Of a DNA stretch of 64,000 bases, positions 35,805 to 63,479 are shown piece after piece. The position numbers and the translations under genes were made by a program. Each line of letters begins with the position of its first letter. Positions within the stretch are counted from its first letter, which is position 1. This stretch comes from Streptomyces sp. NBC_01463 (GTDB lineage: Bacteria > Actinomycetota > Actinomycetes > Streptomycetales > Streptomycetaceae), in the NCBI GenBank assembly GCA_036227345.1, contig CP109468.1:1674001-1738000 (forward strand), written 5' to 3'. The notes under the pieces are model-generated. The model ran no database searches, was not told the DNA's origin, and worked only from the letters and a program-made list of their open reading frames with translations.

Positions 35805-37190
35805 GAGACATCGCGGCAGCAAGCACGCGCCGTTCCAGCCAACAGGGATCAGCCCACGGCGAGACCGTGCTGAGGTGGTAGGACGTCGAAGGTTCGCTGG
35901 TCGCGGATGAGGGCCCACAGGACGCCGAGACGGCGGCGGGCGAGGGCGAGGATCGCCTGCTTGTGGCTCTTGCCCTCGGCTCGCTTGCGATCGTAGAAGC
36001 TCTTGGACGTGGGGCAGAAGCGGACGGCGATCTGGGCGGAGAGGTAGAAGATGCGCAGGAGTCGGCGGTGGTAGCGGTGTGGCCGGCGCATGTTGCCGCT
36101 GATGCGACCGGAGTCCCGAGGGACCGGTGCGAGACCGGCGACGCCGGCGAGCCGGCCCGCGCTGCCGAAGGCGTCCATGTCTCCGCCGGTGCAGGCGATG
36201 AACTCCGCCCCCAGCAACGGGCCCATGCCGGGCATGCTGAGGACGACTTCCGCGTGGCGGTGCTCACGGAAACGGACCGCGATCTGCGCGTCGACGTCAG
36301 CGATCTCGTCGTCCAGAGCCAGCACCGCCCTGGCCAGGGCGGTGACCACCGCCGCGGCAGTGCTCTCCCCGGTCACGGCGGTGTGCTGGGCCTGGGCCGC
36401 GGCGACGGCCGCATCCGCCATGGCTTGGGCGCCACGCACTTTGCGGTTCTTCAGCCAGGTCACGAGTCGGCTCGTGCCGACCCGCCGCAGGCCGGCTGGA
36501 GTTTGGTAGCCGGTCAGGAGGACGAGTGCGGCTTTCGAGGCGGCGTAGTCGAAGGCCCGTTCAAGGGCAGGGAAGTACTCCAGGAGCTGGGCTCGCATCC
36601 GGTTGACGGCGCGGGTGCGGTCTGCGGCGAGGTCGTAGCGGTGGGCGGTGAGGATCTTCAGGTCCACCGCGATCTCGTCCCACTCCTGCAGCGGCTGCAG
36701 GTCCCGGCGCATCCGTGCCTGGTCGGCGATGACATAGGCGTCCTTCGCATCCGTCTTTCCGTCCCCGCGATAGCCGCGGGAGGCGTGATGGACGGTTCGG
36801 CCAGGAATGTAGAGGAGCCGCCGGCCATGGCTGGTCAGGAGAGCGATCAGCAGAGCGCCCCCGCCGGCGTTCAGGTCGACAGCCCAGGTCACCGGGCCGT
36901 CCTCCGCCAGGGCGAGGACGTCGCCCAACAGCTCCAAGAGCTCAGGTTCGTTGTTGGGCACCCGGCGCGAGAGCACCTTCGTCCCGTCCGTGTTGATCAC
37001 CGTGCAGTGATGCGCGGCCTTGCCGGCATCCGTCCCCGCCCGTGTCTTCGGGATCTCCATCACCACCGCCATGAAGTACATCCACGCTGCCCACCCTCAC
37101 CGCGCCGGCCCTGTTCCTCACTGAGGCAGACGACCGCCCCCGGGAAACAGGTGCACCCCCGAATAGCGTCACTCCAGGACCCTGACCTGC
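35805..37190 (-). mobile_element. IS110-family insertion sequence (ends not defined)
   Basis: Built around the intact transposase at 35849-37081. IS110 elements lack long inverted repeats and target duplications, so exact ends are not visible. The left-hand bound is the stop of the upstream hypothetical gene and the right-hand bound the stop of the MerR gene. The non-coding stretch 5' of the transposase (37082-37190) would hold the bridge RNA in this family. Confidence 0.6.
35849..37081 (-). CDS. IS110-family transposase (DEDD recombinase)
   Basis: 410 residues, full length. The N-terminal RuvC-like DEDD domain begins GTDAGKAAHHC with the first Asp, continues VDLNAGGGALLIALL and RGDGKTDAKDAYVIADQAR with the last acidic pair. 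The C-terminal Tnp domain has MPGMGPLLGAEFIACTGG, the Ser of which region is nucleophilic in the family, and CPTSKSFYDRKRAEGK. It moves the element with guidance from an element-encoded RNA. A start a few codons later (MAVVMEIPKT or MEIPKT) is also possible. Confidence 0.93.
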   Translation of the reverse strand: MYFMAVVMEIPKTRAGTDAGKAAHHCTVINTDGTKVLSRRVPNNEPELLELLGDVLALAEDGPVTWAVDLNAGGGALLIALLTSHGRRLLYIPGRTVHHASRGYRGDGKTDAKDAYVIADQARMRRDLQPLQEWDEIAVDLKILTAHRYDLAADRTRAVNRMRAQLLEYFPALERAFDYAASKAALVLLTGYQTPAGLRRVGTSRLVTWLKNRKVRGAQAMADAAVAAAQAQHTAVTGESTAAAVVTALARAVLALDDEIADVDAQIAVRFREHRHAEVVLSMPGMGPLLGAEFIACTGGDMDAFGSAGRLAGVAGLAPVPRDSGRISGNMRRPHRYHRRLLRIFYLSAQIAVRFCPTSKSFYDRKRAEGKSHKQAILALARRRLGVLWALIRDQRTFDVLPPQHGLAVG

Positions 37191-40291: not shown

Positions 40292-40430
40292 CACATCAAC
40301 AGCCGCCCACGCAAAACGCTCGACTGGGAAACCCCAGCCGAGCGCCTCGCTAAGCCACTGGACCTGGCCAGTTGACCAGCAGTGTTGCAACGACCCCTCG
40401 AATTCGCCCACCAGGGTGGGGCCTTCCCGT
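40292..40430 (+). pseudogene. IS30-family transposase 3' remnant
   Basis: 28 codons ending at TGA 40373-40375: HINSRPRKTLDWETPAERLA and then KPLDLAS, the usual end of IS30 transposases (N-x-RPRK-x-L-x-W-x-TPAE). The following GTGTTGCAACGACCCC-type sequence (40384-40399) looks like the IS30 terminal repeat. All upstream parts are gone. Confidence 0.65.
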
Positions 40431-40528: not shown

Positions 40529-41905
40529 TCAGTCGCCGGACGGACTCACGGGCTCCAGTTTGATGCTGAAGTGTCGGAGGATCGGGGACTGGCCCGTAAC
40601 CCGGTAGCCACGGACCGATTCAGGATTCTTCGCGATATCCGCCAGGGTGGCGGCAACGTGGTCGTAGTGGCTGCGGGTGTAGACCCGTCGGGGAAGAGCC
40701 AGCCGTACAAGTTCGTAGGGCGCCGTCTTGACAGGGTTGCCGTGCTCGTCCTCTTCACCGAGGTACAGCGACCCCAGCTCCGCCGAGCGGATGCCTCCGC
40801 GCAGGTAGAGCTCGCAGACGAGTGCGGTGCCGGGGTACTGGTGCGGGGGGATGTGGGGCAGGAGGCGCCCGGCGTTGACGTAGAGGGCGTGCAGACCGGC
40901 GGGTTCCACGATGTCGACGCCGGCCTCGCGGATGCGTGCGGCGAGATGGGCGGCTATGTCGGCACGCTCGGCGAGGTAGGCCGGCTCGGTCACTTCGAGG
41001 AGGCCGCGGGCCATCATGTCGAGGTCGCGTCCGGACAGACCGCCGTAGGTGGTGAATCCTTCGGTGGCGATGAGCAGACCCCCGCACCGCTCGGCGAGTT
41101 CGGCGTCCTTCAGGCCGATGAAGCCGCCAATGTGGACGATCCCGTCCTTCTTCGCGCTCATGACGCAGCCGTCGGCGAGGCGGAAGGCTTCCTCGGCGAC
41201 CTGGCGCGGGGTGCGGTCGGCGTAGCCGGGTTCGCGCTGGGTCACCAGCCACGCGTTCTCCGCGAACCGGGCCGCGTCGAGGATCATCGGCACGTTGTGC
41301 CGGCGGCACAGTTCGGCGGTGCGGTGCAGGTTGTCCATGCTGACCGGCTGGCCCCCGCCACCGTTGTTGGTGATGGTCATCAGCACGGCCCCAACGGGCG
41401 TCTGGTCCGCGTTCTCCAGGGCCTGTTCGAGGGCGATCAGGTCGATGTTGCCCTTGAACGGAAAGTCGCTGTCGAGGTCCTTCGCCTCGGCGCAGGGCAG
41501 GTCGTACGCCGTGCAGCCAGTCAGTTCGACGTTGGCGCGGGTGGTGTCGAAGTGCGTGTTGGACAGCACACTCGTGCCAGGCCGCAGCAGCGAGGAGAAG
41601 AGGATGCGCTCGGCCGCGCGGCCTTGGTGGGCCGGCAGGATGTGGGGGTAGCCGGTGAGTTCGGAGACGACCTCGTGCCATCGGTAGAACGAGCGGCTGC
41701 CGGCGTAGGACTCGTCGCCCTGCATTCCTGCGGCGAGCTGGTCTGCGGAGATGGCACCGGTCCCGGAGTCGCTCAGCAGGTCGATGGTGACTTCGTCGGC
41801 CCGCAGATCGAAGGGGTTGTAGGAAACCCGCTTCAGCGCGGCCTCGCGCTCCTCCCGGGTGGTGAAGGCAAGAGGTTCTACGACCTTGATGCGGTAGGGC
41901 TCCAC
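40529..41905 (-). CDS. Tryptophanase/tyrosine-phenol-lyase-like PLP enzyme
   Basis: 458 residues, normal for the beta-eliminating lyase family. SAKKDG gives the PLP Lys (K253, with neighbour K252), FDTTRANVE and LDAARFAENAW are the family cofactor segments, and the C-terminus has ELVRLALPRRVYT. Probably cleaves a (prenylated) tryptophan to the indole plus pyruvate and ammonia. Its start overlaps the end of the prenyltransferase gene by 28 bp, so they are translated together. Pairs of an indole prenyltransferase and a tryptophanase are known in Streptomyces for 6-dimethylallylindole-type products. Confidence 0.9.
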   Translation of the reverse strand: MEPYRIKVVEPLAFTTREEREAALKRVSYNPFDLRADEVTIDLLSDSGTGAISADQLAAGMQGDESYAGSRSFYRWHEVVSELTGYPHILPAHQGRAAERILFSSLLRPGTSVLSNTHFDTTRANVELTGCTAYDLPCAEAKDLDSDFPFKGNIDLIALEQALENADQTPVGAVLMTITNNGGGGQPVSMDNLHRTAELCRRHNVPMILDAARFAENAWLVTQREPGYADRTPRQVAEEAFRLADGCVMSAKKDGIVHIGGFIGLKDAELAERCGGLLIATEGFTTYGGLSGRDLDMMARGLLEVTEPAYLAERADIAAHLAARIREAGVDIVEPAGLHALYVNAGRLLPHIPPHQYPGTALVCELYLRGGIRSAELGSLYLGEEDEHGNPVKTAPYELVRLALPRRVYTRSHYDHVAATLADIAKNPESVRGYRVTGQSPILRHFSIKLEPVSPSGD

Positions 41906-43134
41906 GTGACTTCCTTCTGTGCGGTGGGCGGGCTGATGTGGCCGACGGCCTGGTGCCCGAGGTCCAGGACGCTCTGGGTGAGTTGCGCAGGCATCCAGGT
42001 GCCCCGCGGGTACTGCTCCTGCGGCGGCCGGACGCGGTGGGCCTCGGAACTCAGGTAGGCGGTGAGCCGGGGCGGCCGGTTGCGCTCGTACACCAGGGCC
42101 AGGTAGGCGATCAGCCCCACGCCGTCGGCGAGGGTTCGCTGTGTCAGCGCTCCCAGACTTCGGTTCAGGACGGTGGGGTCCATGCCGGCCCTGGTCAGCA
42201 GGGCTGTGGCGCGGGCGAGGGCCTCTTCGTCATCGCGCACGTAGTCGCGAACGGGAATGTGGAGCGTGAAGCCGCTCGGGTCGCTGTCGCCTCCGGTGAA
42301 GGAGTGGCAGGTGAGCGCCGGCCGCCGCACCAGGCGCAGGGGGCCGTTTCCGCCGCGCTCGGACGGCGTGAGGGATCCCGCGGCCGCGTGGAAGAAGTAG
42401 CGGATGTCGGCCGCTGTGGCTCCGGAGGTACGGCTGAGCGCGCAGGCGTCATCGGCTGACATGCGCGGGTGGCTCACGTAGACCTTGACGCGGGGGGACG
42501 GCCAGGCGCCCAGGTCCAGAGCGAGGAACGGATAGCCGGCCGCCGGGGGCAGTTGCTCGAAGGCCTGGCCGTAGCCGAGCCGCCGCAGCGCCTCGTGCAC
42601 GGTGCGGGCCGCGCTTTCCGGGCCGGAGGCGGAGGGGTTCAGGTAGACCTTGACCCCTGGGACCCCTCCGGCGCGCAGATCGAGCGCGTACCACAGGGCC
42701 AGGGGGCCCTGGGCTGCAGCGGGGAAGAACAGGTCGGCGAGGGCGTCGAGCTGGTCGGTGGCGAAGCCCCAGCGGGCGCCCATTGCGCGGATGGCCGCAA
42801 GCCCGGCGCGGCCGCTGTCGGCCATGTCGCTGTGGACCCACCCGGGCTCCACGAGCACGCGCAGGGCCGGGGCGGCGTCCGGAGTGCTGGCGAGGGAGAA
42901 CTCGACGGGGGTGTGGTCATCGGAGAGGAAGGTGGGCGAGGCCGGCGGCAGGGACAGCGGCCGGTGGGCGGCGCCTGCGAGGGAGGCGATCAGGACCTGT
43001 CCGTACAGCTCGGTGTCCGCCTCGCTCAGGCCCACCGTGGCGCCCAGGCGCCGCAGTTGACCGAGTACGTGGTCGCCGAGCTTCGTCTCACCGGGGCTGG
43101 CTGCCGGTATGCCGGGCCCCGGGCGGGAGGTCAT
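41878..43134 (-). CDS. Aromatic (indole/tryptophan) prenyltransferase, DMATS type
   Basis: 418 residues from the ATG at 43134. The ABBA/DMATS fold is recognised by the repeated beta-strand blocks: TPVEFSLA, RVLVEPG, GVKVYLNPSASG, RVKVYVSHP, LTCHSFTGGDSDPSGFTLHIP and LTAYLSSEAHRVRPPQ, with the basic and Tyr residues that bind the prenyl diphosphate (K/Y pairs KVYL and KVYV). Streptomyces relatives put dimethylallyl on C5 or C6 of L-tryptophan. The tryptophanase-like neighbour would then release the prenylindole. A promoter region with an inverted repeat separates it from the P450 gene. Confidence 0.88.
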   Translation of the reverse strand: MTSRPGPGIPAASPGETKLGDHVLGQLRRLGATVGLSEADTELYGQVLIASLAGAAHRPLSLPPASPTFLSDDHTPVEFSLASTPDAAPALRVLVEPGWVHSDMADSGRAGLAAIRAMGARWGFATDQLDALADLFFPAAAQGPLALWYALDLRAGGVPGVKVYLNPSASGPESAARTVHEALRRLGYGQAFEQLPPAAGYPFLALDLGAWPSPRVKVYVSHPRMSADDACALSRTSGATAADIRYFFHAAAGSLTPSERGGNGPLRLVRRPALTCHSFTGGDSDPSGFTLHIPVRDYVRDDEEALARATALLTRAGMDPTVLNRSLGALTQRTLADGVGLIAYLALVYERNRPPRLTAYLSSEAHRVRPPQEQYPRGTWMPAQLTQSVLDLGHQAVGHISPPTAQKEVTWSPTASRS

Positions 43135-43486
43135 CGTGCCCCTCGCACGTCGTGGCGCGTAACGCGTCTGGACGGTGCGGGAGTACGGGGATGCGCTCCG
43201 TCGACAAGGGAGGAGACGAGGGCCGATCCGCTGCCGGAAGCAGCGGGTATTCGGTCCTGCGGCTGGTCGGGGTCGTCGCCCCCGCACGGGTTCCGTCTGC
43301 TGGGGGTGGTGCGCCGTTGGCCCGGTCGGGCGCTCGCGGATGGGGGCGCGGAGATGCTTGCGAGGTCCACTGCCTCTCCTTCATCTTGTGTCACTCCAGA
43401 CACTCCGCGCCGTCCTACCCAGGAAGTTGATCTTTCATGCAGGCTACGTCAACTGCCTGTGTCACATGCATCACAGGGGGTGTGGG
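43135..43486. other. Intergenic region between prenyltransferase and P450 genes
   Basis: 352 bp without a supported gene, despite several overlapping open frames. It carries the putative prenyltransferase promoter: TTGACG on the minus strand at 43447-43452 directly below an inverted repeat at 43456-43477. Confidence 0.5.
43456..43477. promoter_or_regulatory. CCTGTG-N10-CACAGG inverted repeat before the prenyltransferase
   Basis: 6-bp perfect arms, 22 bp overall. It lies immediately upstream of a minus-strand TTGACG, a position suited to an activator, or to a repressor of the prenyltransferase/tryptophanase operon. The N10 spacing is too wide for a standard CRP site. Confidence 0.4.
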
Positions 43487-44833
43487 CTACTGGCCCGTCA
43501 GCCACTTCGTGAAGCTGCTCCAGCGCCCCGCTTTGCCGGTGGGCTTCGGCGCAGCCGGCGCGGGTGCGGCCGCGACGGGGGGTGCCTGGTAGCGGGGCAC
43601 GGCCGTCGGCTCCGGTGCGGCCGCGGCGCGCGGGGTGACTGCGCTGAACCGGACGGGCAGGGAGGCCAGGGCCCGGTTGAAGGGACCGGGCCGCCAGGCG
43701 AGGCTGTCCGCGGGGACGGCGAGTTCCACGTCGGGCAGGGCGTTGAACAGCGTCTCCAGGCCCGTCAGGGCGATCAGCCTGGCCGGTTCCTTCGACGGGC
43801 AGGCGTGCGGGCCGGCGCTCCAGGCGAGGTGACCGCGGGTGTCGGCACCGCGGTCCGCGAGCGCCGTGTTGGCGGCGCCGAAGGACACCAGCACCAGGTC
43901 ACCGGCGCGCACCTTGTCGCCGGCCACGTCCGTGTCGACCACCGGGTAATGGGGCGCATAGTTGGACATCGGCGCATTGCGCCACAGAGTGTCGTCCACC
44001 GCCTTGTCGAACTGCCCCAGGCGCGCGAACTCCTCGTTGGTCAGCATCGTGTAGAAGGCGTTGCCGATCAGGTTGCCCTCCGGCTCGCCGCCCGCACCGA
44101 GGAGCAACACCAGCGTGTGCGCCAGTTCCTCGTCGTTCAGCTGCGCCGGATGCTGCATCAGGTAGGACGTGATGTCCTCCCCGGGCTGGGCGCGCTTGAG
44201 CGCCACCAGCTCGCTGACCGCTCCGAGCAGAACCTGGCTGGCCGCTTCGGCGTTGACTCCGTCGAACATGCCGGAGATGCCGAACAGCACCCGGTCACCG
44301 ATCTCTGCCGGGCAGCCGAACAGCTCGTTGAACACGTACAGCGGGAGCTGCTGGGCGTAGTCGCGGAGCAGGTCGGCGCTGCCGCGGGCGCTGAACTGGT
44401 TGATGAGGAACTGGGCCGCCTGGCCGACGATCCGGCTCAGCCGCTTGTTGCTGACGCGGGCGAAGGAGCCGGTGATGGCCTGGCGCAGCCGCACATGCTC
44501 GGCGCCGTCGGTGAACATCGCGTTCGGCCGGTAGGCCAGCAGCGGCAGGACCGGGCTGTCGGGGCGGATGCAGCCCTCAGCCAGGGCACGCCAGCGGCGT
44601 GAGTCCTTGCGAAAGGTCGTCGAATCCTGCAGCAGTTCCAGAGCCGCGTTGTAATCGGTCACCAGCGTCGCCTCCACGCCGGGGGCGATGGTGACCGGAG
44701 CGGTGGGGCCGAGCTCGCGCATGTAGCGGTAGTACGCGTGCGGATTGGCAGCGAACTCAGCGCTGTCCAGGGGTATGCGCTGCCCGCTGCCGTGTGCGGG
44801 GCAGCCGGGCGGAGGTACAGAGGGGGTTGTCAT
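43487..44833 (-). CDS. Conservon-associated cytochrome P450 without ExxR motif (CYP157-like)
   Basis: 448 residues. The haem loop is SAGPHACPSKEPARL, with the single Cys ligand. The usual I-helix AGxxTT is replaced by LLGAGGEPEGNL. In the K helix, where P450s have ExxR, the sequence is VDDTLWRNAPMSNYAP; the R is missing from its normal place (DTLW). CYP157 members from Streptomyces conservons are known for exactly this loss. The C-terminal 60 residues are Pro/Ala-rich. The ATG overlaps the cvnD stop by 4 bp, so it is the fifth gene of the conservon operon. Its role may be structural or redox rather than oxygenation. Confidence 0.9.
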   Translation of the reverse strand: MTTPSVPPPGCPAHGSGQRIPLDSAEFAANPHAYYRYMRELGPTAPVTIAPGVEATLVTDYNAALELLQDSTTFRKDSRRWRALAEGCIRPDSPVLPLLAYRPNAMFTDGAEHVRLRQAITGSFARVSNKRLSRIVGQAAQFLINQFSARGSADLLRDYAQQLPLYVFNELFGCPAEIGDRVLFGISGMFDGVNAEAASQVLLGAVSELVALKRAQPGEDITSYLMQHPAQLNDEELAHTLVLLLGAGGEPEGNLIGNAFYTMLTNEEFARLGQFDKAVDDTLWRNAPMSNYAPHYPVVDTDVAGDKVRAGDLVLVSFGAANTALADRGADTRGHLAWSAGPHACPSKEPARLIALTGLETLFNALPDVELAVPADSLAWRPGPFNRALASLPVRFSAVTPRAAAAPEPTAVPRYQAPPVAAAPAPAAPKPTGKAGRWSSFTKWLTGQ

Positions 44834-45435
44834 GCGTGCTCCAGGTCGGCGCGCTCGTGCAGATAGCGGACCAAGGTGATCAGGGCGTCGACGGACGACT
44901 TCTCGTCGCGTGCGTCGATGGTGACGACGGGGGTGTCGGGCAGCAGGTCGAGTGCCTCCCGGACTTCCTCCGGGGTGTGGACCGTACTGCCGTCGAAGTG
45001 ATTGATGGCCACGGCGAAATCGAGGCCGTAACTCTCGACCAGATCCATGATGTCGAAGGAGTCGGCCAGGCGCTCGGGGTCCACCAGGACCAGGGCGCCC
45101 AGAGCCCCGCGGGCCGTGTCGTCCCAGAGACTCACGAAGCGCTGCTGTCCGGGGGAGCCGAACAGGTACAGAACGATGCGCTCGCTCAGCGTCAGCCGGC
45201 CAAAGTCCAGGGCAACGGTGGTGGTGGTCTTTCCCTGAACCCCTTTGAGGTCGTCGACGCGCTCCGAGAGCGTTGTCATCCGCTCCTCGGTGGACAGCGG
45301 CGCGATCTCGGAAAGTGAGCTGATCAGGGTGGTCTTGCCGACGGCGAAATGCCCGACGACCAGGATTTTCACTGCAGTCTGCTGTGCGCCGCTGGGCACG
45401 TAGGCATCCTCAGACAGAGAGAGCCTTGAGGCCAT
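44830..45435 (-). CDS. cvnD: Conservon small GTPase-like protein
   Basis: 201 residues. G1 is VVGHFAVGKTTL near residues 26-37, G3-like LFGSPGQQRFV follows DFGR, and NHFDG serves as the G4-like motif. CvnD proteins are Ras-like switches at the membrane, working with the CvnA sensor, the CvnB roadblock and CvnC. It overlaps cvnC by 26 bp and cvnE (P450) by 4 bp. Confidence 0.92.
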   Translation of the reverse strand: MASRLSLSEDAYVPSGAQQTAVKILVVGHFAVGKTTLISSLSEIAPLSTEERMTTLSERVDDLKGVQGKTTTTVALDFGRLTLSERIVLYLFGSPGQQRFVSLWDDTARGALGALVLVDPERLADSFDIMDLVESYGLDFAVAINHFDGSTVHTPEEVREALDLLPDTPVVTIDARDEKSSVDALITLVRYLHERADLEHA

Positions 45436-45805
45436 CGAGCACCTCCTTGAGCAGGGCCTTGTTGGTGGGACGGGCCGAGGGCACCGGCGCCCGGGTCACG
45501 AGATAGCCCCCCTCGGCGAGGGAACTGAGCAGCGCCTTGACCACCCCGAGCGGCAGCTGGGAGTGCGCGGCGATCTCAGCGACCGAGAGGTAGCCCCTGG
45601 AGCACATCTCCAGGATCTGTTCCTCCTCGGGCGAGAGCCGTTGGGGGCGCTGCTGCTCGTCGATGGCCGTCGTAACGAGAGAGATGAGGGCGAACTCGCT
45701 CTCATCGGGCAGGTCACGGCCACGGGTGATGACGTAGGGACGGACTAATTCTCCGGCCTCGGACACGAACTCGGGCTCGGGCTCGGGACGGGCGGGTTCC
45801 GTCAT
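45410..45805 (-). CDS. cvnC: Conservon DUF742 protein
   Basis: 131 residues of the DUF742 family, with a winged-helix-like C-terminal half: LSPEEEQILEMCSRGYLSVA followed by EIAAHSQLPLGVVKALLSSL. The N-terminus is Pro/Glu-rich. Member of the cvnABCD unit; ATGA overlap with cvnB. Confidence 0.92.
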   Translation of the reverse strand: MTEPARPEPEPEFVSEAGELVRPYVITRGRDLPDESEFALISLVTTAIDEQQRPQRLSPEEEQILEMCSRGYLSVAEIAAHSQLPLGVVKALLSSLAEGGYLVTRAPVPSARPTNKALLKEVLDGLKALSV

Positions 45806-46200
45806 GAGGTGACCGTGTCGCCGCGAAGGCCGGTCGACATCGCCTTGCCCAGTCGGCTGACCAGCTGCTGCATCCGGTACGTGATGTCCTGCATGTCGAC
45901 CTCGGCCGACGCCGCCACGGCGAGGTAGCTGCCGCCGCCCGCAGCGTTCAGGAACACCCAGCCCCCGTCGAACTCGATGAGGGTCTGGCGCCAGTTCGCT
46001 CCGTGCTCACCGCAGAAGAAGCTGACGGCCCGGCTGAGCGACTGCAGGCCGGAGACGGCTGCGGCCACCTTGTCGGCATCGCCCCTGTCGAACTCCGCGG
46101 TACGGGACATCTGGAGGCCGTCGGCGGAAATCAGGACCGCGTGGAGAGCATGCGGAATCTGCAGCGCGTCCTCAAGCATCCAGGACAGGTCGTCGCTCAC
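45802..46200 (-). CDS. cvnB: Conservon roadblock/LC7 protein
   Basis: 132 residues of the roadblock/longin fold: LQIPHALHAVLISADGLQMS, then AVSGLQSLSRAVSFFCG and a sheet with GGWVFLNAAGGGSYLAVAAS. Such proteins are regulators (MglB-like) of small GTPases, so CvnB probably modulates CvnD. ATGA overlaps with both neighbours. Confidence 0.93.
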   Translation of the reverse strand: MSDDLSWMLEDALQIPHALHAVLISADGLQMSRTAEFDRGDADKVAAAVSGLQSLSRAVSFFCGEHGANWRQTLIEFDGGWVFLNAAGGGSYLAVAASAEVDMQDITYRMQQLVSRLGKAMSTGLRGDTVTS

Positions 46201-47396
46201 GGGGCATCGAATCCTTCGTGTGAATCGGCAGTGGTATCACCTTCGGCGGCCGGTACCCCCGCACCTCGGCCGCTGAGAGTGCCGCGCTGAAACGCGCCCA
46301 TGGCCGCCACCCTTGCCTCTGCTGACCTGGCCGGCGGCGCTTCATCAGATCTGCGGCCGCTGTCCGGCACGAGCGCCATGCCGCGCTTGTTCCGTCGCCT
46401 GGGCAGCCCGCCCTCTGCCGCCGCAGGAGCCGAATCGCGGCTCTCGGCAGCGGCATTGACTTCTTGCGTGGTCGTGGGCGTCTTGGGCTCGGGCATCTCG
46501 GTCAACAACTCCTTCGGCACCATCACCACCGCGCGGACGCCGCCGTAGGGAGAGGTGCTGTCGATGGCGACCGTGAACCCGAACCGCGCGCACAGGGCAC
46601 CGATCACCGCGAAACCGAACGCGGGAGGGTTACCGAGCTCCGCAACGCTCACCGCGGACCCGCTGGACAGCAGAGCGGTGGCGTTCGTCCGTTCTTCCTC
46701 GCTCATGCCGACACCGGCGTCGTCGATCACGATGCAGATGCCCCGGGGCACCGTCCGCACCTCGACCTCGACCATGGTGGACGGCTCGGAATAGCTGGCC
46801 GCGTTGTCGAGCAGCTCGGCCACCGTCAGCGCGATCGGTTCGACGGCACGGCTGGTCACCGCGAAATCGACCCGTGAGGCGATCTCGATACGCTGGTAGT
46901 GCCGGATACGGCCCTGCGCTCCGCGGATCACGTCATAGACCGATGCGGCCTCCCGCTGCCGGCCGAGCCACCCGCCGCACAGCACAGCAATGGACTGCGC
47001 ACGCCGGTTGAATTGCGAGTTCATGTGGTCGATGTCCAGCATGTCCCGCAACACGGCCGAGTCGCCGTACTTCTTCTGCAGCCCGGAGATGGCCCGCTGC
47101 TGCTCCGCGGCGAGGCCTTGAAGGGTCCGCATAGCCGACTTCAGTACGGTGTTTGTGGCCTCCTCCGCCTCTTCCTTCGCCTGGCGGACCACCTCGTCGT
47201 AGCCGCTGCGCAGCTCGGTGACGGTGGACCCGAGGTCGACGGCCCTGCCCTGCGATGCGGTCAGCTCACCCTGAAGGCCCTGCTTCTGACGACGTAGCGC
47301 CTTGATCTTTTTTCGCTGGCGAGTGATTACCGTGGCGGCGACAGCGACGCCGACGGCAAGCGCCCAGACTGTCGGATCCTGCCAAAAATTCGTCAT
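46197..47396 (-). CDS. cvnA: Conservon sensor histidine-kinase-like protein
   Basis: 399 residues from the ATG at 47396 (MTNFWQDPTVWALAVG); a longer frame to 47507 lacks support. A single N-terminal membrane helix (WALAVGVAVAATVI) is followed by a long coiled coil (residues 25-100), then a GHKL ATPase domain with ELLDNAASYSEP (N box), DDAGVGMSEEE (G1) and GFAVIGALCARFG. No phospho-acceptor His motif is evident, as in other CvnA proteins. The C-terminal 100 residues are disordered. It starts the cvnABCD-P450 operon. Confidence 0.92.
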   Translation of the reverse strand: MTNFWQDPTVWALAVGVAVAATVITRQRKKIKALRRQKQGLQGELTASQGRAVDLGSTVTELRSGYDEVVRQAKEEAEEATNTVLKSAMRTLQGLAAEQQRAISGLQKKYGDSAVLRDMLDIDHMNSQFNRRAQSIAVLCGGWLGRQREAASVYDVIRGAQGRIRHYQRIEIASRVDFAVTSRAVEPIALTVAELLDNAASYSEPSTMVEVEVRTVPRGICIVIDDAGVGMSEEERTNATALLSSGSAVSVAELGNPPAFGFAVIGALCARFGFTVAIDSTSPYGGVRAVVMVPKELLTEMPEPKTPTTTQEVNAAAESRDSAPAAAEGGLPRRRNKRGMALVPDSGRRSDEAPPARSAEARVAAMGAFQRGTLSGRGAGVPAAEGDTTADSHEGFDAP

Positions 47397-48674: not shown

Positions 48675-51020
48675 TCAGCCCGTCGTCTGGCCGGCGATGG
48701 CGAACCCTGCGGTGACTTGGCACAGTTCGTCGGCGGCTTCGCGCCGGCGGGGGTTGTTCAGCCCGACGAGGGTGCGGTGGGCCGTGGTCAACGTCGCGCG
48801 GGCCTCGTGGTGGCGGTTGAGGTGGCGCAGGGTAATGCCGAGGTCGAGGCGGACGGGTTCGCTCCAGGCAGGCATCCGGCCTGCCTCGAAGTGGGCCAAG
48901 GCGGCACGCAAAGGGGATTCGGCCTGGACCCATCGCCCCAGGGCCATGAGGTCACTGCCGAGGTTATGGCGGGTCTGCGCCAGATATGTGGCGATGAGGT
49001 CGTGCGGCTTCCCCGGCACGCCGGCGAGGCAGAGGGCTTCGCTGCGCCGGTGGATGACCAGGGCCTCGTCCGTACGGTTGGCGTAGCGCAGGTGCTGGCC
49101 CAGGGTATTGAGAATGGTGAGTTCGGCGAGGCGGACTTGCGGATCTGTGTGGTTCCTGAGGTGGGCGGCTGCTTCGTGCAGCCGGACAATGGATTCGTCG
49201 ATCCGTCCGAGCCGACGGAGTGCTCCTGCCGCGTAGCCCAGGGCCCATCCCGTTTGGAGCTGGTCTGCGGCCTCGTATGCCGCGGCCAGGGCGGCTTGTG
49301 CGGCGGCCAGGGCGGCGGGGTAGTCGTTGAGGCAGAAGTTGTAGGTCCAGGCGAGGTAGTTGAGGTGGACGGCCTCGTCGCGCCTGCTGCCGAGCGCGCG
49401 GGCTGAGTCAACGGCGCGCTGGAACACCTCCGCCCACAGCTCCCAGTGCGCGGTGATGTCGGAAAACCAGTGCATCGCTTCGGCGGCGTCGATGACCTGC
49501 TGGTGCCGGCCTGCCGCCTGGGCCTGGCCCAGGGCCGCGAGCCACTGGGGCCGCTCGGCTTCCAGCCAGATCCGGGCTTGCTCGTGGCCGCTGGGCGCGG
49601 TGGCCAGGTCGGGGTCGCCTTCGGGCGCGTCCTGGTGGCGGTCGGCATCGAAGCGCAGTGCGGCGGCGGTGGCCCGGCGCAGGATCCAGCGGGCGGCCCG
49701 GTCCTGGGCAGCGGCGGTCTCGGTGGGATCGTCATCCTCGACCAGTTGCTCGGCGGCGAACAGGCGCAGGAGGTCGTGGAAGCTGTAGCGGTCGGCGGTG
49801 GAGTGGGGCTGGAGCAGTCCGGCGTCGGTCAGCCGTTCGATGCAGCGCGCGGCCTGGCGTGGGGGTATGCCTGCCAGGAGGGCTGCGGTGGTGGGGCTGA
49901 AGTCGGGGCCGCAGGCGAGTGAGGCGCGGCGGAAGACGGTGCGGGCGGCCGGGCTGAGCTGAGCGTAGGACAAGGTGAAGGCGGACCGTATCTGCAGGGA
50001 GCCTGCCCGCAGGGTGTCCAGGCGGTCCCCGTGAGCGGTGAGCTGGGTAACGAGTTTGGCCAGGGTCTCGCCGGGCCGGGAGGCCAGGCGCTGGGCGGCG
50101 ATGCGCATGGCCAAGGGCAGGTACCCGCAGAGTTCCGCGAGGTCGCGGGCGGCCTGTGCCTCCCGCTCGACCCGCTCCGGCCCGATGACGCGGGTAAGGA
50201 GTTCGACCGCTTCCTCCCGGCGCAGCAGCGACAGCTCCGTGCGGTGGACGGCTTCCAGGCCGGCCAGCGAGCGGCGGCTGGTGACCAGGGTCAGACAGGC
50301 GCCGTGGCCGGGCAGCAGGGGGCGGACCTGGTCCTCGTCGGCGGCGTTGTCCAGAAGGAGCAGCACCCGGCGCTCGCGCAGCACCGAGCGCAGCAGACCG
50401 CTGCGCTCGTCGGTGGCGGCCGGGACAGCGGTCTCGGCCACACCGAGCGCGTAAAGAAGCCGGGCGAGCACCTCGCGCGGCGGTGTGGGCTCCGGGTCCA
50501 TGCCGCGCAGATCGACGGCGTACTGCCCGTCCGGGAAACTCGGCGCCAGAGTATGGGCGGCGTGCACGGCGAAGGCGGTCTTGCCCAGCCCGGGTTGGCC
50601 GCAGATCACGGCGACCGGCGGTCGGGCGGGAGCGAGGTCCTCGGCCAGGCCCCGCAGCCCGGCCAGGGCAGGGCCGCGGGCGGTGAAGTCACAAAGATCA
50701 CGCGGCAACGCCAGCCCGTGCACAGCCGCCGACCCCGCCCCTGGCCCTCTCCCGGCGGCCGACCTGGGCCCCGCCCCGCCCACGGTCCGCGGACGACCCG
50801 AACGGGCGGCTTCCTCGAGCTCATGGCCCACAACGCCATCCACTCCCAAGGCCGCCACCAAAGCCTCCACCGTGCGCTGCCGCGGCCCTCGCGTCCGCCC
50901 GCGCTCCATGTCCGACAGCGCCCGCACACTGACGCCCGCCCGCTGCGCCAGCCGCTCCTGGCTGGTGCCCGCTCCCGTGCGCAGTGCGTGCAGCAGCTCG
51001 CCGAACTTGTTGTCGCTCAC
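48675..51020 (-). CDS. XRE/NB-ARC/TPR regulator (AfsR-like architecture without SARP domain)
   Basis: 781 residues. An XRE helix-turn-helix (FGELLHALRTGAGTSQERLA then VSVRALSDMERGR) occupies 5-60. An NB-ARC ATPase follows: Walker A CGQPGLGKTAF near 140, RVLLLLDNAADEDQV as Walker B, and LVTSRRSLAGLEAV. The last 350 residues are TPR-like helices. Such proteins are switch-type regulators of secondary metabolism or development. It is the nearest regulator to the conservon/prenylindole genes, but on the far side of a membrane-protein gene. It starts 340 bp from the divergent GT87 gene. Confidence 0.9.
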   Translation of the reverse strand: MSDNKFGELLHALRTGAGTSQERLAQRAGVSVRALSDMERGRTRGPRQRTVEALVAALGVDGVVGHELEEAARSGRPRTVGGAGPRSAAGRGPGAGSAAVHGLALPRDLCDFTARGPALAGLRGLAEDLAPARPPVAVICGQPGLGKTAFAVHAAHTLAPSFPDGQYAVDLRGMDPEPTPPREVLARLLYALGVAETAVPAATDERSGLLRSVLRERRVLLLLDNAADEDQVRPLLPGHGACLTLVTSRRSLAGLEAVHRTELSLLRREEAVELLTRVIGPERVEREAQAARDLAELCGYLPLAMRIAAQRLASRPGETLAKLVTQLTAHGDRLDTLRAGSLQIRSAFTLSYAQLSPAARTVFRRASLACGPDFSPTTAALLAGIPPRQAARCIERLTDAGLLQPHSTADRYSFHDLLRLFAAEQLVEDDDPTETAAAQDRAARWILRRATAAALRFDADRHQDAPEGDPDLATAPSGHEQARIWLEAERPQWLAALGQAQAAGRHQQVIDAAEAMHWFSDITAHWELWAEVFQRAVDSARALGSRRDEAVHLNYLAWTYNFCLNDYPAALAAAQAALAAAYEAADQLQTGWALGYAAGALRRLGRIDESIVRLHEAAAHLRNHTDPQVRLAELTILNTLGQHLRYANRTDEALVIHRRSEALCLAGVPGKPHDLIATYLAQTRHNLGSDLMALGRWVQAESPLRAALAHFEAGRMPAWSEPVRLDLGITLRHLNRHHEARATLTTAHRTLVGLNNPRRREAADELCQVTAGFAIAGQTTG

Positions 51021-59887: not shown

Positions 59888-60396
59888 TCCAGGCGGAAAA
59901 GTAAATGGCCGAAACGTGCTGCAACTTTTTCGGCCCACATGAATCAAATGTTTCGCGCTTGCAACATAAATTTCTGCCACATAGACACTGCCTCGTTCCC
60001 GACGCGGGTCGCGTCGGCCGAATCATCAATCGTCCGAGGTGAGGAAGGTGAGACCATTAACGGGTGAAATCAGCGCTGTTTTGCGAACTCTTTAATGTCT
60101 CTCTCGTCACGTTGCCGGTATAGGCCAACCCGTCCGGAAGTCATTGACCCTGACCTGTTCAGTGACGGAACATTCGAAGGGTTGTGCGATCGAGGAAGGC
60201 TGGTCATGTCACCATATTCCCGTTTCCTGTTCTACCCCGAGTTCCCGCGACTGCTCCCCTCCGCCTACCCCTCGAAGTCCCCACGGAACGGAATCACTTC
60301 GAATGGCTGGATTCGAATGGATCTCGCCGGGCGACAGATCTCCGTCCGGGCCGGCCTCGCGCCGTCCCGCACAGCATGAAGGGGGCCCCGTACGCC
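59888..60396. other. AT-enriched upstream region of the polyprenyl synthase
   Basis: About 510 bp with no supported gene. The first 200 bp are AT-rich for this genome and hold an imperfect direct repeat (GAAACGTGCTGCAAC near 59912 and TTTCGCGCTTGCAAC near 59952). A further short direct repeat TTCGAATGG occurs at 60299 and 60312. Promoter of the isoprenoid genes is probably here. Confidence 0.5.
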
Positions 60397-61455
60397 ATGG
60401 CGGATCAGATGCGCCTGACGGGGCCAGCCCTGCCTGACGCGCTGGAGTCCCTGGAGAGATGCCGCGACCTCGTGCAGCCCGCACTGCACGACGCGGTCGG
60501 CCGGTTGCACCCGAGCGTGGGGCGGATGGCGTCGTTCGCGTTCGGCTGGTGCGACGTCGACGGTGTGCGCCGGGGCGGGGGCGGTGGCAAGGGGCTGCGG
60601 CCCGCCCTCGCGGTGCTCTGTGCCGAGGCCGTCGGAGGATCCGCCGCGGACGCGGTGGCCGGGGCGGTCGCGGTCGAACTCGTGCACGCCTTCTCGCTGG
60701 TGCACGACGACATCATCGACGGCGACGAGCGCAGACGGCACCAGGACACCTTGTGGAAGGCGTTCGGTGTGGGGCCCGCGGTCCTGGCGGGCGACGCACT
60801 GCTGGCACTCGCCCTCGGCACCATCGGGTCCACGGCCGAGGGCGCGACGGCCATGCTGTCCGCCGCGCTGGTCGAACTGGTCGAGGGGCAGGCGGCCGAC
60901 ATCTCCTTCGAGGGCCGCCCGTGGGCGGGCCCGCACGCGGTGACCGTGGACGAGTACACCACGATGGCCGCCGACAAGACCGGGTCCCTGCTCGCCTGCG
61001 CCGCCGGACTCGGCGCCCTGCTCGGCGGCGGCGGATCCGATGCCGCCGCCGCGATGTCCACGGCGGGCAGGCACCTGGGCCTGGCCTTCCAGGCGATCGA
61101 CGATCTGCTCGGCATCTGGGGCGACCCTTCGGTCACCGGGAAGCCGGTCTTCAGCGATCTGCGGCGGCGCAAGAAGTCGCTGCCGGTGGTCTTCGCGGCC
61201 ACCGTCGAGAACGGGACACACGCGGAACTCCTCGGGCGCCTCCTGGACACCGCGCCCGACGCACCGGAGCGGGACCTCGACCTGCGGCGTGCCGCCGACC
61301 TGATCGCCCGCGCCGGCGGCCGGACCTTCGGCGCGGAGCAGTCCGACGGGCATCTGCGACAGGCCCTGGAGGTCATCGGGGCCACGGCAGTGGACCTCAC
61401 CGCCGCGGCCGAACTGACGGGCCTGGCACGGTTCGTCGCCGACCGCTCGCACTGA
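60397..61455 (+). CDS. Polyprenyl diphosphate synthase (GGPP-type likely)
   Basis: 352 residues from the ATG at 60397 (GGGGG upstream; an ATG at 60376 adds seven residues). First Asp-rich motif D104-D105-x-x-D108 (VHDDIIDGDERRR), second motif D235-D236 with D243 (AIDDLLGIWGD). GLRPALAVLCAEA and KTGSL are in place. Condenses IPP with allylic diphosphates; chain length (FPP/GGPP or longer) cannot be read directly. Followed by an IclR gene 36 bp later, and next to dxs/ispG, so it probably feeds a terpenoid pathway. Confidence 0.9.
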   Translation: MADQMRLTGPALPDALESLERCRDLVQPALHDAVGRLHPSVGRMASFAFGWCDVDGVRRGGGGGKGLRPALAVLCAEAVGGSAADAVAGAVAVELVHAFSLVHDDIIDGDERRRHQDTLWKAFGVGPAVLAGDALLALALGTIGSTAEGATAMLSAALVELVEGQAADISFEGRPWAGPHAVTVDEYTTMAADKTGSLLACAAGLGALLGGGGSDAAAAMSTAGRHLGLAFQAIDDLLGIWGDPSVTGKPVFSDLRRRKKSLPVVFAATVENGTHAELLGRLLDTAPDAPERDLDLRRAADLIARAGGRTFGAEQSDGHLRQALEVIGATAVDLTAAAELTGLARFVADRSH

Positions 61456-62321: not shown

Positions 62322-63479
62322 TCAGGCCCCGGCGAAGACCGTCGGTTCGCCGGGCTCCGCGCCGTCCTCCTCCAGCTGTTCGGCGAGTTTCATGGCCTCC
62401 TCGATCAGGGTCTCCACGATCTTCGACTCGGGGACGGTCCTGATGATCTCGCCCCTGACGAAGATCTGTCCCTTGCCGTTGCCCGACGCCACTCCCAGAT
62501 CGGCCTCCCGCGCCTCACCGGGGCCGTTGACCACACAGCCCATCACCGCGACCCGCAGGGGTACCTTCATGCCGTCCAGGCCGGCGGTGACCTGGTCGGC
62601 CAGCTTGTAGACGTCCACCTGGGCCCGGCCGCAGGACGGGCACGAGACGATCTCCAGAGCGCGCTGCCGCAGACCGAGGGACTGCAGGATCTGGGTCCCG
62701 ACCTTGACCTCCTCGGCGGGCGGCGCGCTCAGGGAGACCCGGATGGTGTCCCCGATGCCCTCGCTCAGCAGGGCCCCGAAGGCGACGGCGGACTTGATGG
62801 TGCCCTGGAACGCGGGACCGGCCTCGGTCACCCCCAGGTGCAGCGGATAGTCACAGACGGCGGCGAGCTGCCGGTAGGCGTTGACCATCACCACCGGGTC
62901 GTTGTGCTTCACCGAGATCTTGATGTCGCCGAAGCCGTGCTCCTCGAAGAGCGAGCACTCCCACAGCGCGGACTCCACCAGCGCCTCGGGGGTGGCCTTG
63001 CCGTACTTGGCGAGCAGCCGCCGGTCCAGCGAACCGGCGTTGACACCGATCCGGATCGGGACACCCGCACCCGACGCGGCCCGTGCGATCTCGCGCACCT
63101 TGTCGTCGAACTGCCGGATGTTGCCGGGGTTCACCCGCACCGCGGCGCAGCCGGCGTCGATCGCCGCGAAGACGTACTTCGGCTGGAAGTGGATGTCGGC
63201 GATCACCGGGATCTGCGACTTGCGCGCGATGGCGGGCAGGGCGTCCGCGTCGTCCTGGGACGGGCAGGCGACCCGGACGATCTGGCAGCCCGCCGCGGTC
63301 AGTTCGGCGATCTGCTGGAGGGTGGCGTTGATGTCGGAGGTCAGGGTGGTGGTCATCGACTGCACCGATACGGGTGCGTCGCCGCCCACCGGGACCTTCC
63401 CGACCATGATCTGCCGGGAGCGGCGGCGGGTGGCGAGGGGCTGGGGCGGCAGTGAGGGCAGGCCGAGGGCGACCGTCAT
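62322..63479 (-). CDS. ispG: 4-hydroxy-3-methylbut-2-enyl diphosphate synthase (IspG/GcpE)
   Basis: 385 residues. Converts MEcPP to HMBPP in the MEP pathway. The [4Fe-4S] ligands are C280, C283 (SCPSCGR), C315 and E322 ([10 protein letters not shown]). The N-terminal TIM-barrel part starts [22 protein letters not shown] overlaps the dxs stop by 4 bp, so it is the second gene of a dxs-ispG operon. A chromosome normally has another housekeeping copy; pairs like this are common in terpenoid clusters. Confidence 0.95.

Follow-up and report, generated by a model that had tools for sequence, protein, structure and literature searches.

We analysed a stretch of 64,000 nucleotides from Streptomyces sp. 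NBC_01463 (contig CP109468.1, positions 1,674,001 to 1,738,000), referred to here as the window, which carries on its minus strand a conservon, cvnABCD, followed by genes for a cytochrome P450, an aromatic prenyltransferase of the DMATS family and a tryptophanase-type lyase. These genes form a conservon-linked indole-prenyltransferase cluster of Type A, and the evidence makes it likely that its DMATS gene entered, by replacement, a slot downstream of the conservon, which may also control it. The pairing of conservon and DMATS is real, widespread and already published. According to the accessible part of Ozaki, Nishiyama and Kuzuyama (2013; PMC3617294), a conservon was present in all indole-prenyltransferase clusters found, some with an extra P450, and the authors raise the possibility that the conservon takes part in signalling; the idea of a conservon-prenyltransferase link is therefore not new. 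The junction between the P450 and DMATS genes, in contrast, looks unpublished. A literature search that excluded most subscription journals found no published account of the promoter-like element, the P450 remnant or the DMATS-lyase fusions described below, and the accessible text of PMC3617294 holds nothing on the element, a P450-derived leader, a fusion or conservon-less relatives, the word "promoter" being used there for a cloning vector only.

The seven-gene arrangement that an earlier note had read from the window (cvnA, cvnB, cvnC, cvnD, P450, DMATS, lyase) is confirmed, with genes for an ATPase, a roadblock protein, a DUF742 protein and a small GTPase in the order characteristic of conservons (Table 1). 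No extracellular sensor domain is evident in the N-terminus of CvnA when read by eye; a short hydrophobic stretch, VWALAVGVAVAATVI, is present, and all 19-residue windows in this region score at most 1.6 on the Kyte-Doolittle scale. The note had cvnABCD running by ATGA overlaps into the P450 gene: the unit is complete, and such overlaps join cvnB to cvnC and cvnD to the P450 gene, but cvnA and cvnB overlap by GTGA, and cvnC and cvnD by 26 nucleotides. The DMATS and lyase genes do overlap, by 28 nucleotides, on the same strand as the conservon, and 352 bp separate the P450 gene from the DMATS gene. Because the genome (9.07 Mb) contains 11 DUF742 (cvnC family) genes and a single DMATS gene, the adjacency of conservon and DMATS is not attributable to chance.

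Among known systems, the closest are the Type A clusters, defined by a tryptophanase, such as that of Streptomyces sp. SN-593 (iptA); one Type A cluster makes 6-dimethylallylindole-3-carbaldehyde. Type B clusters contain a flavin monooxygenase, and in S. coelicolor SCO7467 together with SCO7468 makes 5-dimethylallylindole-3-acetonitrile (accessible text of PMC3617294). With a conservon upstream of DMATS and tryptophanase genes, the window is of Type A, and its gene order is that of the SN-593 cluster: conservon (with a P450 in some clusters), DMATS, tryptophanase. The "small indole-isoprenoid pathway" of the earlier note fits these published clusters. The Type B loci examined share with the window the conservon, the P450 and a DMATS of the same clade, and differ in a convergent flavin monooxygenase gene in place of the lyase gene; this comparison was made through Type B loci other than that of S. 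coelicolor. In the accessible portions of PMC13343842 and PMC8510531, conservon systems with CvnE likewise combine cvnABCD with an accessory P450 and a CvnA in which no sensor domain is evident, whereas cvn8, the system studied there, encodes a GAF protein (CvnF) and adjoins a lanthipeptide cluster, unlike the window.

Of 295 genomes of the genus, 53 encode DMATS relatives, among them the genome of the window itself, and 56 loci besides the window were mapped. Within this first set, 39 of the 42 loci with DMATS identity of at least 50% are immediately preceded, in the same orientation, by a conservon of three or more cvn genes; the three exceptions are L050, with no conservon, L068, with the P450 only, and L056, where the contig ends. 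A second set was taken from the best 80 of 160 genome-contig stretches encoding a relative, and therefore leans to close relatives; 64 of these loci did not duplicate the first set by an exact 300-nt test, although L115, L116 and L125 share a single S. alfalfae assembly. Three or more cvn genes and the P450 are present in every one of the 60 non-duplicate loci with at least 5 kb of upstream sequence, and the partner of DMATS in the 64 is a lyase in 27, a flavin monooxygenase in 35, both in none and neither in two (L145, L157). The conserved co-occurrence that the earlier note had proposed to look for is thus borne out. The P450 subfamily, too, is usually found beside DMATS: in 201 genomes (61 + 70 + 70, with at most 27 candidates per genome scored), 27 of the 31 P450 genes of at least 60% identity adjoin a DMATS gene. 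The other four comprise L192 and L193, with a conservon and a flavin monooxygenase, and L194 and L195, which show no cvn genes.

At about 30% DMATS identity, five of eight loci (L080, L081, L082, L084, L085) adjoin a different conservon of opposite orientation, the P450 of which is CYP157-like at 35-39% identity; an aminotransferase gene lies between the distant DMATS gene and the conservon in L080. This type is perhaps a second, independent conservon-DMATS association.

The DMATS gene appears to have taken the slot downstream of the conservon by replacing an older, second P450 gene, judging from a clade whose leader is a 5' remnant of that gene and from a genome that holds the P450 at the same locus. 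The second P450 of sister conservons is canonical (PF00067, 2.1e-26; ExxR and FGGGIHYCIG present), with 22-28% identity to the CYP157-like P450 that follows cvnD. L196 and L040 occupy one and the same place in the chromosome, with 81% identity ahead of the slot and 77-83% beyond it; in the slot alignment, L196 contains the second P450, and L040 contains a leader, DMATS and lyase. The leader open reading frame (ORF) of an L040-type locus aligns with the N-terminus of the second P450 of L093 (score 109; highest shuffled score 53), as do 10 of 12 L040-clade leaders with that of L196 (117-161, shuffled at most 52; the remaining two, L061 and L178, score 42 and 50). Elsewhere among the 45 leaders tested in all, L185 is clear (86), L123 and L131 are modest (60 and 62), and the rest lie near or within the shuffles. 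A midpoint-rooted FastTree phylogeny of the P450s (132 tips) unites 106 tips in one clade (support 0.94), most of them DMATS-linked, with the DMATS-less L192-L195 also among them. This clade is sister to L196 and L197 and nested among conservons with a second P450; Type A forms a basal grade, and Type B is derived. Replacement of the second P450 by the DMATS-lyase pair seems to us the simplest reading; in the reverse direction, a DMATS leader would have had to turn into an intact P450 N-terminus. By such a replacement, the pair would have kept the promoter and start region of the P450 gene, and one branch would later have acquired the convergent flavin monooxygenase gene in place of the lyase gene, giving Type B. 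A CYP154 label for the second P450 found no support: no solved structure matches the slot P450 of L196 at 1e-60, and neither of the CYP154 structures 1gwi and 1odo is among the best 60 of its 296 matches.

A promoter-like element between the P450 and DMATS genes suggests that DMATS apparently took over the promoter of the second P450 as well. The element, GCATGANNNNTCAACNNNNNGGGTAG (GCATGA-N4-TCAAC-N5-GGGTAG; 26 nt, 17 specified bases), occurs once exactly in the window's own genome, where five other matches have three mismatches; the reversed control gave one match. We searched 105 linked loci, namely the window, 41 loci of the first set (the 42 less L050) and 63 of the second (the 64 less L153, too short), retaining L056 and L068 although no conservon was seen there. 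Up to four mismatches, the element is present in 99 of the 105 (38 exact, 30 with one mismatch, 21 with two, seven with three and three with four); the other six show five to seven. Its information content across 30 thinned sequences is 1.14 bits per position, compared with 0.30 upstream and 0.43 downstream. Each locus with a match carries the element once, and no second copy was found upstream of cvnA. Weaker versions precede the second P450 gene in the sister conservons L092, L093 and L104 (one, two and three mismatches, respectively), and seven of the eight loci L196-L203 have the element at two to four mismatches, L198 being without the GGGT that the scan requires. At up to three mismatches, it was detected in none of seven conservon-less DMATS loci, five of which, when rescanned, gave best matches of six to eight mismatches. 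The claim in the earlier note that the prenyltransferase has its own promoter region agrees with this conserved, putative promoter.

Several observations weigh against the joint reading of linkage, replacement and control. None of the six loci at 43-47% DMATS identity (L072-L075, L077, L078) has a conservon, although five of them have the lyase, and L050, with a DMATS of 60% identity, has none either; the enzymes therefore do not need a conservon. In the midpoint-rooted DMATS tree, from which L075 and L078 are omitted as falling below the identity cut, four DMATS from conservon-less loci are placed next to the clade of the window (support 0.70), and L050 falls inside the linked group; on the DMATS side, a single capture is thus not established. 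Conservon and DMATS are kept in L045 and L047 with the P450 between cvnD and DMATS missing; in the genome of L045 (G118), two related P450 genes lie in tandem elsewhere (L194). Conversely, conservon, P450 and flavin monooxygenase are retained in L192 and L193, where DMATS and the element are both missing, and among 20 more distant P450 loci that lack DMATS only three have the element at up to three mismatches. A simple scan of the window's junction for sigma-70 promoters and terminators recognised nothing. Finally, the leader in the window does not resemble the second P450 (score 32, shuffled mean 34.8, z -0.5), and its hairpin is shorter than that of relatives and has no T-run; for the window, a P450 origin of the leader and a terminator-like hairpin are thus inferred from relatives.

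A rival reading is that two neighbouring operons with separate functions are merely passed on as a block, with the conservon regulating something else and DMATS using a convenient promoter. The element after the P450 gene offers DMATS a possible promoter of its own, DMATS-lyase pairs do occur without conservons, and the element, being missing in the DMATS-less L192 and L193, may serve the slot gene alone. Yet the unit stays intact across differing gene neighbourhoods, also in Kitasatospora and Actinacidiphila, the P450 subfamily is rarely seen without DMATS, and sister conservons hold another enzyme gene in the slot behind a similar element; we regard independence as possible but clearly less probable than the joint reading.

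The leader that precedes DMATS might act in its own right, as a transcription attenuator in which a translated leader ORF holds open a terminator-like hairpin and couples DMATS expression to leader translation, a tentative idea that we rather doubt. A leader ORF of at least 25 codons, preceded by a Shine-Dalgarno-like sequence and ending on the DMATS start, is present in 97 of the 105 loci; a hairpin stem of at least 8 bp occurs in 87 (typically GATACCCGCC..GGCGGGTATC; shuffled leaders, mean 5.1, maximum 10), and a T-rich tail follows it in 54 (shuffled mean 0.15, maximum 2), the shuffles being mononucleotide ones that preserve base content alone. The window's leader ORF matches in position the P450-derived leader of other clades. 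Against attenuation, leader codons change 1442, 1711 and 1518 times at positions 1, 2 and 3, without third-position bias, and 25 leaders of 35 codons differ by 750 synonymous and 2877 non-synonymous codon changes; a conserved leader peptide (VDHIST..IPAPxGGYL..), which we had considered, was rejected because the codon positions change equally. The openness of the leader frame is itself weak evidence, since another frame is open in 74 of the 97 leaders. The T-run is absent in the window, and the hairpin, which forms the middle motif of the leader and in the L040 clade also coincides with the second-P450 remnant, may be a mere remodelled remnant of P450 codons. Rfam covariance models gave no match in the window at the gathering threshold and, in the leaders of L042 and L040, two sub-threshold matches only, both in L042.

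The two enzymes are those expected of a Type A cluster. The window's DMATS matches PF11991 over its cut-off and TIGR03429 at 1.6e-36, under the curated cut-off, and both its profile and its solved-structure relatives place it among the DMATS aromatic prenyltransferases (PriB, 5inj, 1e-126 and 426 bits; 6zs0, 425 bits; the 6-dimethylallyltryptophan synthase 7w8u, 398 bits). PriB is close to the DMATS of L040 (740 bits) and 6zs0 to the Type B DMATS of L042 (672 bits), and the window enzyme is about equidistant from both structures; the sequence therefore does not settle the ring position of prenylation. We take PriB to act at C6. Because the characterised Type A cluster makes a 6-prenyl product, the 6-prenyl series is the better guess and would most likely be the product of the window. 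The lyase belongs to the NCBIfam "tryptophanase" subfamily NF009709 (615 bits, cut-off 285) and scores under the equivalog cut-offs of TIGR02617 and NF053783; the pyridoxal phosphate lysine and the active-site Tyr, Arg and His all align, at positions that we assume to be those of E. coli TnaA. In the predicted pathway, DMATS would add a dimethylallyl group to tryptophan and the lyase would then free the prenylindole, and the fusion of the two enzymes in one reading frame in L049, L057 and L071 supports their joint action.

The P450 lacks ExxR, as the earlier note had seen, with DDTLW at this site, EP at the I-helix Thr site and the heme Cys kept (GPHACP). Absence of ExxR, xxLW in the K-helix and retention of the Cys mark it, by motif, as CYP157-like, and the Pfam P450 model reaches only E 0.008, under its cut-off, solved P450s matching at 1e-36. 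In the accessible text of PMC3599690, which cites Rupasinghe (2006), loss of ExxR with xxLW in its place is described for CYP157, also beside a conservon, as in the window. All 39 DMATS-linked P450s (window and 38 loci) have W for the R of ExxR, and all keep the heme Cys; the I-helix Thr is Pro in 38 and Ala in one. These are traits of the wider family, since 20 of 20 less related P450s (19 beside cvn genes) also have W and 18 have Pro at the Thr site; the five P450s of the distant L080-L085 conservons have W as well and retain Thr (NETT). A biosynthetic role, in which this P450 would not be a sensor but would oxidise the prenylindole, for instance to the 3-carbaldehyde, seems improbable: the heme Cys kept in all 39 and the oxidised carbaldehyde product of the known Type A cluster (accessible text of PMC3617294) speak for it, but the loss of both ExxR and Thr, the occurrence of related P450s with a second P450 instead of DMATS, the retention of this P450 in Type A and Type B despite different products, its absence in L045 and L047 and the general association of P450-type accessories with sensor-less CvnA (accessible text of PMC13343842) speak against it.

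Other features of the window lie further from the junction. Upstream of cvnA is a gene for a large helix-turn-helix/NB-ARC/TPR regulator (48675-51020, minus strand), matched at 1e-8 among L032-L091 in L076 and L088 only. Polyprenyl synthetase and GcpE (IspG, methylerythritol phosphate pathway) genes (60184-61455, plus strand; 62322-63479, minus strand), about 13-15 kb from the conservon, are a possible extra isoprenoid supply near the prenyltransferase. Just downstream of the lyase gene, 40300-40400 (minus strand) resembles, by eye, the 3' end of an IS30-type transposase gene, and an IS110-type transposase lies at 35849-37081.

Table 1. Features of the conservon-DMATS cluster in the window, and DMATS-lyase fusions in other loci (coordinates of the respective locus)
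Feature	Position	Strand	Remarks
cvnA	46197..47396	-	histidine-kinase-like ATPase (HATPase), 399 aa; PF02518 6.9e-8
cvnB	45802..46200	-	roadblock/LC7 protein; PF03259 2.7e-18
cvnC	45410..45805	-	DUF742, PF05331 8e-34; winged-helix matches weak, PF09339 3e-5
cvnD	44830..45435	-	small GTPase; PF03029 2.2e-27
P450, CvnE-type, CYP157-like	43487..44833	-	DDTLW for ExxR, I-helix Thr absent, heme Cys kept
Promoter-like element GCATGAAAGATCAACTTCCTGGGTAG	43415..43440	-	0 mismatches to GCATGANNNNTCAACNNNNNGGGTAG
Purine-rich Shine-Dalgarno-like stretch (ATGAAGGAGAGGCA)	43371..43384	-	precedes leader ORF
Leader ORF	43131..43370	-	GTG start, 79 codons; stop overlaps DMATS ATG
Hairpin CCGCTGC..GGCAGCGG	43228..43246	-	where relatives have the terminator-like hairpin GATACCCGCC..GGCGGGTATC
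DMATS-type tryptophan/indole prenyltransferase	41878..43134	-	418 aa, ATG start; ORF reaches 43287
Tryptophanase-type beta-eliminating lyase	40529..41905	-	PF01212 3.7e-66; NF009709
DMATS-lyase fusion	L049:9451-12243		930 aa
DMATS-lyase fusion	L057:8195-10780		861 aa
DMATS-lyase fusion	L071:9416-12001		861 aa

P450-type and GAF-type accessory proteins go with sensor-less CvnA, and signal input has been proposed as their role (accessible text of PMC13343842). The conservon and its odd P450, as input for a sensor-less CvnA, would target the promoter ahead of DMATS and make the prenylindole the output of this G-protein system, and the P450 may sense the prenylindole. CvnC, given its weak winged-helix matches, is one candidate for a protein that reads the element. 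Extending this further, we can speculate, at rather long odds, that conservons of this clade are signalling modules in which the output slot is exchangeable. The G-protein core and a P450 lacking the usual catalytic residues, as ligand or redox sensor, would be joined to a dedicated promoter and to a varying small-molecule enzyme, either a canonical P450 or DMATS together with a lyase or a flavin monooxygenase; the prenylindole would be both output and P450 ligand in a G-protein autoinduction circuit. For cvn8, the neighbouring gene cluster is a target (accessible text of PMC8510531). The slot replacement offers a candidate promoter with one exact genomic site and a natural pair of loci before and after the exchange, and would therefore make conservon control of a specific enzyme directly testable.

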